This document shows positions 43,038 through 54,824 of a DNA stretch of 64,000 nucleotides, piece after piece. How positions within the stretch are numbered: position 1 is the stretch's first letter; the number at the start of each line of letters is the position of its first letter. Under the pieces are notes generated by a model that was not told the DNA's origin, did no database searches, and was given only the letters and a program-made list of their open reading frames with translations. Made by a program: the position numbers and the translations under genes. The stretch comes from Alphaproteobacteria bacterium (lineage in GTDB: Bacteria > Pseudomonadota > Alphaproteobacteria > Caulobacterales > Aquidulcibacteraceae), in NCBI GenBank assembly GCA_030430715.1, contig JAUIJZ010000006.1:1-64000 (forward strand), given 5' to 3'.

Positions 43038-43340
43038 TTAATCGGCATCCTCTTCGGCCTTCATCAGATCCTTCTCGGTGAAGAGATAATCCTTCAATTC
43101 CTTGGCGAAGACAGGATTATTGCGCCGCAGCCATTCGATCAGCATGGCGGCGTGCTCAAATTCTTCCTTCATATTGTGCAGCAGGATCGCCTTCAGGCTT
43201 TTATCTTCGCAATCATCGGCGCGCTGGCGATACCAGTCGGCGGCTTCCAATTCCTCCATCAGCGACACGATGGCATGGTGCATTTTCAACGTGTCGGCGG
43301 AAAGCCGCTCACGCGGCGCATGCAATGTTTCGCTGCTCAT
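43038..43340 (-). CDS. Encapsulated-ferritin (EncFtn)-like protein
   Basis: MHHAIVSLMEELEAADWYRQRADDCEDKSLKAILLHNMKEEFEHAAMLIEWLRRNNPVFAKELKDYLFTE closely matches the EncFtn E-x6-WY / ExxH ferroxidase pattern. Confidence 0.9.
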   Translation of the reverse strand: MSSETLHAPRERLSADTLKMHHAIVSLMEELEAADWYRQRADDCEDKSLKAILLHNMKEEFEHAAMLIEWLRRNNPVFAKELKDYLFTEKDLMKAEEDAD

Positions 43341-45275: not shown

Positions 45276-45716
45276 ATGAACGTTAGGGCGATCATTGCGG
45301 CGGCGGCATTGGCTTTGGCGGCAACGCCGGCTCACGCACAGGTGCCCGATCCATTTGCGCGAGAACTGGCGTCGCAACTCGCCAGCGCCGACCGTCTCGT
45401 CGCGGAAGAAAATTATCAGCGCGCGGCGGGGCCGTTCTCCGGCGGATTGGCGCAAGGCGGCAGTCAGGTATTCAATGTCACCCTGCGCGCGGGTCAGGAT
45501 TATCGCATGCTCGGCGTGTGCGACGGGCGCTGTAGCGATGTCGATATGCGGGTGCTCGGGCCCAATGCGGGCGTGATCGCCGAGGATGCCGATCGCGGCA
45601 ATGTGCCCGTCGTGTCGATCCGTCCCGAACAAACCGGGCGCCACGAAATTGAAGTCGAGATGGCGCAATGCGGGGCGGCGCGCTGCTGGTTTGCCTTCAA
45701 CGTCTATGCGCGCTGA
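45276..45716 (+). CDS. Secreted protein with four-cysteine beta-rich (pre-peptidase-like) domain
   Basis: Signal MNVRAIIAAAALALAATPAHA; LGVCDGRCSDVDMRVL...VEMAQCGAARCWFAFNVYAR. Confidence 0.7.
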   Translation: MNVRAIIAAAALALAATPAHAQVPDPFARELASQLASADRLVAEENYQRAAGPFSGGLAQGGSQVFNVTLRAGQDYRMLGVCDGRCSDVDMRVLGPNAGVIAEDADRGNVPVVSIRPEQTGRHEIEVEMAQCGAARCWFAFNVYAR

Positions 45717-49091: not shown

Positions 49092-49550
49092 ATGCGAAGC
49101 ACATGGATCATCATCGGCCTGCTGGCCAGTCTTGCGGCCTGCAATCAGCCCGGAAACGAAACAACAAATGGCGCCGTACCGGAGCACGCCGCCGAACATT
49201 CCGCCGAAGCGCCAATAGATCCGCCGATTGGCGGTTTGCCCCAAGCTGTGCCGGCGGCGCCGCCGCGCTTTGTCGGGCTATGGGCGGTCAATCAGAGCTT
49301 ATGCGGCGAGCCGGCCTGGCGTTTCGAGGCCGATGAGGTCTCCACGCGCGGCGAAGTGCATTGCGACTTCGATCGCGCGCTGCCTGTTCCCACCGGCTAC
49401 AGCATTGCCGCGACCTGCACGGCGGAAGCGCCGCCCGCGCCCTACCAGATGGAGTTTGCCATCTCGGAGTCCGGCGATGCGATGACAATTGCGGGCGGCC
49501 CGTGGGCGCACGCCAATCTCGTCCGCTGCGGCCCGCTTGCGGGCGACTGA
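49092..49550 (+). CDS. Hypothetical lipoprotein
   Basis: MRSTWIIIGLLASLAACNQP lipobox; C-terminal cysteine-containing beta-rich domain. Confidence 0.65.
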   Translation: MRSTWIIIGLLASLAACNQPGNETTNGAVPEHAAEHSAEAPIDPPIGGLPQAVPAAPPRFVGLWAVNQSLCGEPAWRFEADEVSTRGEVHCDFDRALPVPTGYSIAATCTAEAPPAPYQMEFAISESGDAMTIAGGPWAHANLVRCGPLAGD

Positions 49551-49604: not shown

Positions 49605-50519
49605 ATGGCGGACGTTTTTCTCTCCTATGCGAGGGAGGATCGCGCGATGGCGGAGAGGGTCGCTCGCGGCCTCGACGCGATGGGGCTGGACACCTTCTGG
49701 GACACCGAAATTCCGCCGGGCAAAACCTGGGCGGATTATATCGAGGGCAAGCTGTCGGCGTGCCGCGTCGTCATTGTGCTGTGGAGCGAGCATTCCACTA
49801 AGTCGCAATGGGTGCGTGAAGAAGCGCGCATGGGCCGCGATCACGCAAAACTGATCCCGGCAATGATCGACAATGCGCCGGCGCCGTTCGGTTTCGGCGA
49901 GGTGCAGGCGGCTGATCTGTCCAGTTGGAATGGCAACACCAACGATCCGCGCTGGACGCGCTTCGCCAGTGCTGTCGGGCAAGCGGCGGGGGTGGACATT
50001 TCAAGCGCCCGGCGTCCCGCGCCGCAGCCGCAATTTTTCGCTGCGTCCGCGCACACAGGTTCAGGCTCTGGCGAAAAGCTCTCGCCCATCGGCTATGTGC
50101 GCAAATGTTTGCGCCTCTACGCCAACGGCAAGGGGCGCGCGCGCCGCTCCGAATATTGGTGGTGGGTGTTGGCTTCGAGCGTCGCGCTTTTCGTGGCCGC
50201 GTTCATCGATTCTGTGCTGTTCGGCGTCAATCCGTACACGAACGAGCCAGACACACAGCTCTTTAGCGGCGTGCTTGGCCTTGGTCTGATCGCGCCCACT
50301 ATCAGCGTGATGAGCCGCCGGTTTCACGATGTCGGCTTGAGCGGCTGGCTGGTTGCCGCCGTCTTCGGCGCCTACATCCTGGGCGGCGGCGTCGCCCTGG
50401 AAGCGGAAGAATTGGGCGCGCTGATTGTGATCCTCACCGCTGTCGCGGCGATCATTGTGACGGTTTTGCCGTCAAAACCCGGCTCCAATCAGTATGGTCC
50501 TAATCCAAAGGGGCTCTAA
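49605..50519 (+). CDS. TIR domain fused to DUF805 membrane domain
   Basis: MADVFLSYAREDRAMAERVARGLDAMGLDTFWDTEIPPGKTWADYIEGKLSACRVVIVLWSEHSTKSQWVREEARMGRD; C-terminal YVRKCLRLYANGKGRARRSEYWWWVLASSVALF...MSRRFHDVGLSGW (DUF805). Confidence 0.88.
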   Translation: MADVFLSYAREDRAMAERVARGLDAMGLDTFWDTEIPPGKTWADYIEGKLSACRVVIVLWSEHSTKSQWVREEARMGRDHAKLIPAMIDNAPAPFGFGEVQAADLSSWNGNTNDPRWTRFASAVGQAAGVDISSARRPAPQPQFFAASAHTGSGSGEKLSPIGYVRKCLRLYANGKGRARRSEYWWWVLASSVALFVAAFIDSVLFGVNPYTNEPDTQLFSGVLGLGLIAPTISVMSRRFHDVGLSGWLVAAVFGAYILGGGVALEAEELGALIVILTAVAAIIVTVLPSKPGSNQYGPNPKGL

Positions 50520-50590
50520 GCGCCTCAGCTGCGCGGAAGCCGTTTGATCCCGCGCCGCCGCCTGCTAGATCAGGCGGGCAGGAGGGGGCG

Positions 50591-51634
50591 ATGGCGGACA
50601 TTTTTCTGTCTTATGCGCGGGAAGACCGGGTGCGCGCCGAGCAAATGGCGCAAGCGCTGGAAAGCGCTGGTCTGGATGTGTTCTGGGACAATGAGATCCC
50701 GCCCGGCAGAACCTGGGCCGATTACATCGAGCAGAAGCTCTCGCAGTGCAAAGCGCTGATCGTTTTGTGGAGCGAGGAATCGGTCAAATCACAATGGGTG
50801 CGCGAAGAGGCGCGCATGGGGCGCGACAAGGGCGTGCTGATCCCCGTCATGATCGACGCTGTGCCGGCGCCGTTCGGTTTCGGCGAGTTGCAGGCTGCTG
50901 ACCTCTCCAGTTGGAATGGCGAGCAGGATCACGCCGGCTGGCGCCGCTTTGTCGATGCGGTGCGCCATTTTGCGAATACGACGCCTGAGCCGGCGGCGCG
51001 TTCATCCATGGGCTCAGCGCCGCCGCGCGCTCAACCGGCTGTAGCGCTTCCCGAGAAGAAGAAGGGCGTTCCGGTTTGGGCGTGGGTTGCCGGCGGCGTT
51101 GTCGCGACCATCGTGGTGCTGGGCATTATCGGGGCAGTGGTTGAAGACGGCCCCGATGTTCCTCCGGTGGAGCATGTCGAAACGGTCCCCGAGAATCCGA
51201 TACAGGCAGCGGCCAATCCCGCCGCCGCGGCAGGGCCGGGCGGCGCGCCCGGCGGCCAGAATTACGGGCAGCAATTGCAGGAGCGGTTAGCGCGGGCGCA
51301 GCAAGTGATGAGCCAGCAGGGCTTCCAGCAGATTGTGCAGCCGCATCAAGGCCAGCTTCCACAAGGCCAGCACGTGAACGTGCCGCTCACCCTCAATGCG
51401 GGCGGCGAATATCGCATCATTGGCGTTTGCGACAATGATTGCGGCAATCTCGATCTTATTCTCTACGACCAGAACAACACTCTGATCTCGCGCGACACTA
51501 TGGAAGATGCGTTTCCAATCGTGGCGGTCACGCCGCAATGGACGGGCGCCTTCACCGTTCAGGCGATGATGAGCCATTGCGCCGTTCAGCCGTGTTATTA
51601 CGCGCTCGCGCTTTATGGGCGCGCCACGCAATAG
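50591..51634 (+). CDS. TIR domain - TM helix - extracytoplasmic four-cysteine domain protein
   Basis: MADIFLSYAREDRVRAEQMAQALESAGLDVFWDNEIPPGRTWADYIEQKLSQCKALIVLWSEESVKSQWVREEARMGRD; TM VPVWAWVAGGVVATIVVLGIIGAVV; GVCDNDCGNLDLILYD...MMSHCAVQPCYYALALYGR. Confidence 0.85.
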   Translation: MADIFLSYAREDRVRAEQMAQALESAGLDVFWDNEIPPGRTWADYIEQKLSQCKALIVLWSEESVKSQWVREEARMGRDKGVLIPVMIDAVPAPFGFGELQAADLSSWNGEQDHAGWRRFVDAVRHFANTTPEPAARSSMGSAPPRAQPAVALPEKKKGVPVWAWVAGGVVATIVVLGIIGAVVEDGPDVPPVEHVETVPENPIQAAANPAAAAGPGGAPGGQNYGQQLQERLARAQQVMSQQGFQQIVQPHQGQLPQGQHVNVPLTLNAGGEYRIIGVCDNDCGNLDLILYDQNNTLISRDTMEDAFPIVAVTPQWTGAFTVQAMMSHCAVQPCYYALALYGRATQ

Positions 51635-53666: not shown

Positions 53667-54824
53667 ATGGGGATGACGCAGGACGATCAAGCCGGGCATT
53701 GGCGGCGTAAGCTGCGAAACATGCGCACATTTCCCGCCCTGCGCCGCCAAGCGCCGGATGCGGAGGCGCTGGCGCGGCTCAGCGATGGCGAATGCGCCGC
53801 CGCTGTGGAAAATCCAGATCACAGCGAGGCCGGCCGGGCCGCCGCCGCCCAGGCGCTCAGCGCGCGCGGCCTGACGGTTGAGCGTTGGCGGCTGGCCGTG
53901 CCCGGTTTCATCAATGCCGAAGACCTCACTCAAAAAGGCGCGCGGCTTTTCTTCGGCGCCGGGCGCGCGGTGCGCAAATGGAGCGGCTTGGCCATCTTCG
54001 CTGTGCTGATCGGCATTTTCGCCGCCGTGGCCTGGTTCGACAGCCGCGGCGCCTATTTCGAGCTGTCCGACGATGCGGCTGGCATGTTGGGCCTCGCCAT
54101 GATCGCGCTGCTGCTCACCTGGTTTGCCGCGAGCGCATTGCGGCGCAAGCCGGCGCGTATTCTTCTCCTGCGCAAGTTCAACGTGCGCGCGGTGTCAACG
54201 CCGCTTGAGCGCATGATGGCGCAAGAGCTGCGCCCGTATGGACATGTCGCCTCGCTGTCGGACAAACACATCCGCCGCGATAATTTCGGCTGGGTGTCGA
54301 TAGCGTTGTTGTCGATCTCCAATCCGCTTGCGGCGGCGTGGTTTGTGATCGGGTTGCCGATCCGCTTTATCTTTCGTCTGTTCGATCGTTCGGCGATGGG
54401 CCCCGCCGTGGTGCTGAATGCGCGCGATTATCGCAATTTGGCGCGGCGTCTGCGCGACCGCATCGGCCTCAACATCCAGGTGGCGATGACGAAGAAGGAA
54501 GCGTTTCTGGTGCGCACCTCGGATGCGTGGTGGCAATTGGTGATCCGGCTGTTCATGGATTCAAGCGACGCCATCGTCGTCGATCTGAGTCAGGTCGCCG
54601 CCGGCACCGAATGGGAGCTGGACGTGATCCGCGACGAGCAGAGCCAGGCGCGCTGCGTCTTCGTCGCCATCTGGGGGCAGGCCGAGACGGCGGAAGCCGC
54701 GCTGCGCGCGCGCGGCTTCGACAATCCGTGCTTCTTTTACGCGCCCGATGGCGAGATGCAGCGGCGCGGTGATTTCCGTGCAGCGCTTTTGCGCGCCATG
54801 CGCGCCGCGCACGGTCTGGCATGA
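53667..54824 (+). CDS. Membrane protein with C-terminal cytosolic domain of unknown function (TIR/SLOG-like fold possible)
   Basis: Two TMs near the middle; [31 protein letters not shown]...[25 protein letters not shown]. Confidence 0.7.

Follow-up and report, generated by a model that had tools for sequence, protein, structure and literature searches.

Of the bacterial TIR domains studied by experiment, most belong to virulence factors or to soluble enzymes of defence. The NADase TIRs PdTIR, TcpB/BtpA, AbTIR and SARM1 share their fold and the column of the WxxxE glutamate with the two predicted inner-membrane proteins described here, which we call TIR805 and TIRPPC, but their partner domains differ from those of the pair. 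Thoeris, made up of a ThsB TIR and ThsA, shows weak ThsB_TIR/ThcB4 similarity to the pair's TIRs, but the pair is membrane anchored, sits at a core chromosomal locus and has no ThsA-type gene next door. Animal Toll-like and IL-1 receptors have in common with TIRPPC an exported recognition domain, one TM segment and a cytosolic TIR. In TIRPPC, however, the chain order is reversed, with the TIR at the N terminus, there is no LRR or Ig domain, and the TIR is a bacterial TIR_2 with an intact WxxxE, making the likeness an analogy of layout only. Alphaproteobacterial TIR_2 multi-domain proteins (SUMF1, MORN, WD40, TPR-like) have N-terminal TIRs of about 35-48% identity, often followed by a membrane helix as in TIRPPC, but they carry other C-terminal domains and form no fixed syntenic pair. 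The TIR_2 heads of other proteins of the class belong to TIR-SUMF1, TIR-TM-SUMF1, TIR-TM-MORN and TIR-WD40 proteins and to TIRs with many TM segments. Membrane TIR fusions are a kind already known by domain content, though uncharacterised, and the pair is a variant of that kind. A literature search, mostly of non-subscription papers, found nothing on TIR proteins with DUF805 or on membrane-tethered bacterial TIRs.

The pair lies in the window, by which we mean the whole stretch of 64,000 nucleotides that was analysed. TIR805 (49605..50519, forward strand, 304 aa) consists of a TIR_2 domain at aa 4-108, a Pro/Ala linker and a four-TM DUF805 domain at aa 172-299. TIRPPC (50591..51634, forward strand, 347 aa) has TIR_2 at aa 4-118 and a TM helix at aa about 163-184, then a low-confidence linker and a predicted exported part, a helix and a four-cysteine jelly roll, at aa 223-345. 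Both proteins are members of TIR_2 (PF13676) by score, with 82.1 and 91.4 bits against a curated cut-off of 28 (E=6e-23 for TIR805, E=8e-26 for TIRPPC). TIR805 also belongs to DUF805 (PF05656; 84.1 bits, cut-off 25.7, E=1.2e-23), with its four predicted TM segments inside that domain, while Pfam recognised nothing in TIRPPC after TIR_2. The fusion to a TIR is what sets TIR805 apart from DUF805 at large; no other genome among 386 sampled from the class had a full-length TIR-DUF805 protein, in a comparison that scored the best 5 candidates per genome and could miss divergent cases. A preliminary description of this DNA had reported the two open reading frames, and we found the coordinates, the quoted motifs, the fusion to a multi-TM DUF805 domain and the single TM helix with an export-side four-cysteine domain all to be as it gave them. 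It had gone too far in calling the two TIRs near-identical: they match at 66-70% of protein positions and at 287 of 397 aligned columns of coding DNA, and judged by sequence they are clear paralogues that fall short of near-identity.

The preliminary description had also called for AlphaFold models of both proteins, and these contain the TIR fold, with SARM1 among the Foldseek matches. The model of TIRPPC, made with 27 orthologues, has a confident TIR, a helix at 163-181, a disordered linker and then a helix and a beta jelly roll at 223-345; the mean pLDDT is 81, with folded domains at about 90-97, and the pTM is 0.43, so the orientation of the domains is undefined. TIR805 is modelled as a TIR and a helical bundle (pLDDT 83), and among the Foldseek matches listed for it there were TIRs only and none for DUF805. 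The TIR of TIRPPC matches Hydra TRR-2, AbTir, TcpB, SARM1 and PdTIR. Its C-terminal part matches the C-terminal domains of the subtilases Tk-SP and KP-43, the collagen-binding domain of the collagenase ColH and the GOLD domains of p24 (9ues, E=3e-7; 3afg, E=8e-7; 1wmd, 3jqw, 7rrm and 5azw).

The predicted exported domain is encoded at 51257..51631 on the forward strand (aa 223-347), and its four cysteines (Cys280, Cys284, Cys330 and Cys335) are invariant across 27 orthologues. It had no significant match to Pfam PPC (PF04151), and a sequence-only PDB profile search gave just E=0.6-0.8 to Tk-SP. Because the Pfam cut-off was missed and the PDB profile match was weak, we name the domain PPC/GOLD-like by its fold; as modelled, it is a PPC/GOLD-type jelly roll outside Pfam PPC membership. 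Tk-SP, KP-43, ColH and p24 share the fold, and the TIRPPC domain is distinguished from them by a score below the PPC cut-off, four invariant cysteines and fusion to a TM segment and a TIR. The preliminary description had left this domain unnamed, and the fold match now assigns a structural class to a four-cysteine exported domain that occurs chiefly in Caulobacterales.

A stand-alone relative of the domain, PPCsolo (45276..45716, forward strand), lies 5 kb upstream of TIRPPC, between PepP and PrmA, and was missing from the preliminary description. It is predicted to be secreted, having a signal-peptide-like N terminus (AHA-Q), and hhalign relates it to the exported domain of TIRPPC with a probability of 100% (E=2e-43). 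Its match to Pfam PPC is weak (E=0.0016, 19.7 bits) and below the cut-off of 25.9, which leaves it outside that family. Its four cysteines are kept in every one of 13 orthologues. Two genomes of genus g23 (G161 and G209) have the PPCsolo gene, and a search with the exported domain found no TIRPPC-like fusion in them, for which reason we think that the stand-alone form is likely older than the fusion. G016 presents the reverse case, with TIRPPC present and PPCsolo absent at its usual place. We had considered PPCsolo as an obligate partner of TIRPPC, and these three genomes weaken that idea. The other members of the four-cysteine family stand alone and are predicted to be secreted proteins or lipoproteins. 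Among the Caulobacterales genomes sampled, 59 of 298 have the family; a class-wide sample had it in 2 of 386 genomes, both of the same order, and plasmids of Deinococcus and Stanieria carry occasional copies. On the Stanieria plasmid (L145:3848-4306), the stand-alone protein adjoins DUF1822, and a caspase-family gene follows a few genes downstream.

There is a second TIR-TM-four-cysteine protein in G111, a genome from another Caulobacterales family (f3), which also encodes a stand-alone lipoprotein-like four-cysteine protein. Its TIR is not a member of the pair's clade (98/97) and sits near TIR-SUMF1 types (92/89); the sequences suggest that the architecture was assembled there independently. 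Since a TIR has been joined to this exported domain a second time, we take the G111 protein to suggest a functional link between the two.

We believe that the pair probably serves in signalling at the cell envelope. TIRPPC is predicted, from sequence and model only, to have a Toll-like layout of cytosolic TIR, a single TM segment and a periplasmic sensor-like domain. The preliminary description had called the layout receptor-like, and this agrees with the AlphaFold domains and with the charges at the predicted TM segment (166-184), which is preceded by three K/R residues and followed by none. The reading that we favour, while giving it somewhat less than an even chance, is that TIR805 and TIRPPC form a core receptor of the envelope whose catalytic TIRs are clustered by events in the periplasm. 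The periplasmic PPC/GOLD-like domain would bind an envelope ligand or a partner, which might be the secreted PPCsolo or a jelly-roll protein like it. This would cluster the single-pass TIRPPC, so that cytosolic TIRs could meet each other and the TIR of the membrane neighbour TIR805, which may be a multi-pass scaffold or co-receptor sharing the TIR interface. The clustered TIRs would then cleave NAD+, and the output would be a cyclic-ADPR-type signal or local NAD+ loss. For a plant TIR, induced proximity is enough for activation in planta (PMC7414095).

We are more hesitant about a broader form of the envelope-receptor reading, which we regard as possible and put forward tentatively as a whole: that the pair is a core, syntenic two-protein membrane TIR receptor outside defence islands and a bacterial counterpart of Toll-type receptors, with TIR805 as an obligate or facultative partner, and that a PPC/GOLD-like domain, kin to a secreted protein encoded nearby, controls the cytosolic TIR enzymes. 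If the pair does signal from the envelope, TIR chemistry would there be put to housekeeping use in transmembrane signalling, by a device of Toll-like layout, and the pair would be a compact system for finding out how an outside domain switches a TIR. The pair also offers a first functional context for DUF805.

The two genes are side by side in 25 of 29 same-genus relatives, a count in which G015 and G017 have pieces truncated at contig ends. Beyond the genus, at least two further genera of the family have the genes side by side as well (G036 in g8 and G117 in g22). In the 24 genomes measured, the genes are on the same strand with gaps of 27-86 bp. The preliminary description had named conserved pairing as a test of its proposal, and the pairing extends well past this genome. 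An RHH gene follows TIRPPC in all 20 neighbourhoods examined in those genera, and as far as the contigs reach the genes keep the order PepP-PPCsolo-PrmA-UvrD-(lipoprotein)-TIR805-TIRPPC-RHH-FumC, except for single-gene losses and, in a few cases, TIR-MORN insertions. The outer neighbours are LpxC, BamD/YfiO, LigA, thymidylate synthase and pyruvate kinase, and the sister records that bear names are Hyphomonadaceae/Caulobacterales MAGs. The lipoprotein-like gene just upstream of TIR805 (lipo152, 49092..49550, forward strand) is present in many, not all, relatives and is a possible operon member, inessential to the pair. A promoter and terminator scan gave results at or below chance and no operon evidence.

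There are cases of loss as well. Within the genus, G011 has kept TIR805 and lost TIRPPC, G014 lacks both genes in a locus that is otherwise intact, and nothing matching the pair turned up in G028, which is 57% complete. In genus g22, G098 and G166 keep TIRPPC and lack TIR805 at the locus. In G013, TIR805 is missing and a single gene (L033:1501-2538, reverse strand) has a TIR805-type TIR (97/88) on the membrane and exported part of TIRPPC. The gene has the look of a deletion that ran from one tandem TIR copy to the other, although in a draft MAG it could be an assembly error. It suggests that either TIR may stand in for the other. The pair is ancient for the family and vertically inherited, yet it is dispensable, because it has been lost wholly or partly in G014, G011, G098 and G166.

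The main functional rival of the envelope receptor is anti-phage abortive infection, in which the exported domain, or envelope damage at phage entry, triggers the TIRs, leading to NAD+ depletion or a killing signal. The TIR family is used in Thoeris, CBASS, SPARTA and other systems, the pair's TIRs have weak TIR-only matches to ThsB, ThcB4 and SAVED-TIR models, and this genome encodes many TIR proteins (ten TIR_2 matches); the losses in some lineages would also fit a costly suicide system. Against this, the loci examined are at a fixed site among housekeeping genes (LpxC, BamD, LigA, PrmA, UvrD, FumC) with no known defence partner nearby. In nucleotide comparisons of close pairs, omega lies at 0.01-0.12 in the TIRs, 0.02-0.12 in the exported domain and 0.05-0.22 in DUF805, and is higher in the linkers. 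Purifying selection on the folded domains is strong, and the exported domain evolves slowly, with no sign in these comparisons of the fast change of an arms race. The phage records searched had no match to the pair, and plasmid records gave single-domain matches only and none at full length. No ThsA-type effector is beside the pair, where the neighbours are PepP, PPCsolo, PrmA, UvrD, the lipoprotein, RHH and FumC; a search for the ThsA-type SLOG (STALD) domain had no match in 33 genomes and was silent in the control genomes too. On its neighbour genes we rejected the locus as a defence island, and the pair does not qualify as a mobile defence gene. UvrD matches to GajB models were also set aside, as helicase-family cross-matches of a full-length UvrD/PcrA. 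Because of the stable housekeeping site, the lack of defence neighbours and of phage or full-length plasmid matches, and the slow evolution, we consider anti-phage action weakened and now unlikely. The defence module of the preliminary description thus stands as a possibility, less likely than it implied given the site, the lack of a defence partner and the silence of the phage records.

Another reading, to which we give about the same low probability as anti-phage action, is that of a non-enzymatic membrane scaffold, in which the TIRs hold both proteins, and perhaps other TIR proteins, in an envelope complex. TIR domains often serve as assembly modules (PMC7075850). The residue in question is Glu73 at the WxxxE position, the predicted catalytic glutamate, whose codons are at 49821..49823 in TIR805 and 50807..50809 in TIRPPC (both forward strand). 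In a profile of both TIRs, residue 73 aligns with the last matched residue of the PdTIR, AbTIR and RUN1 TIRs, so that both sequences have the WxxxE glutamate in the alpha-C region that is expected of an NAD+-cleaving TIR. It is present in all 70 close and all 29 divergent TIRs compared (99 in total), and the placement proposed in the preliminary description is borne out by this column. Under the scaffold reading the glutamate would be kept for fold or interface, and this has some backing in the close set: E72, A74 and R75 are invariant there too, and a few close orthologues have Ser or Tyr in place of W69 and still keep E73. In the divergent set, however, residue 72 is D, A, E, N, T or S, residue 69 is W or F and R71 varies, while E73 persists in 29 of 29, as expected of a catalytic residue. 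NAD+ catalysis by the two TIRs is plausible from the sequences. An intact glutamate is no proof of it, because many TIR domains act as scaffolds.

We think it quite improbable that the pair is instead a sensor and an effector that spares NAD+, with TIRPPC sensing and TIR-TIR contact switching a DUF805 protein that acts on the membrane through a channel, permeability or lipid effect. The constant pairing of an exported-sensor TIR with a multi-pass TIR would fit such a device, as would the invariant motifs of DUF805 in TIR805 (GRARR, RRxHD, GW and NxxGPxPK in a 27-row alignment). However, neither channel nor enzyme activity is known for DUF805, on which the papers searched say almost nothing, and each protein can persist when the other is gone (TIRPPC in G098 and G166, TIR805 in G011). 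Neutral tandem duplication with accidental C-terminal fusions could account for the tandem TIR copies, the lineage-specific losses and the chimera, but it is disfavoured to the point of being very hard to credit, given low omega in all folded domains, retention across the genus and a second TIR-TM-four-cysteine assembly elsewhere; the low omega, the invariant cysteines and the genus-wide synteny argue that the pair is not due to chance.

Further TIR proteins are encoded on other contigs of this genome (C57, C109, C84 and C51; L002, L004, L006 and L008). They include a TIR-TM-TPR-like protein, a TIR-TM-TM-TIR double-TIR protein, a TPR-TIR protein and a TIR-like domain joined to a ParA-type ATPase, and the first of these has TIR counterparts across the genus. 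In some species the PepP-FumC interval contains TIR-MORN proteins (L054, L056, L057 and L044), mostly with a membrane helix, as if the region collects TIR genes. Downstream of FumC, at 53667-54824 on the forward strand and in about 13 of 20 relatives' loci, is a gene for a protein of 385 aa, which has TM helices and matches no Pfam or NCBIfam model; its C-terminal 'ILLLRKFN...' stretch resembles a TIR/deoxyribosyltransferase-type Rossmannoid domain. At the other end of the region, an EncFtn-like (encapsulated ferritin-like) gene lies beside PepP (43041-43340, reverse strand).
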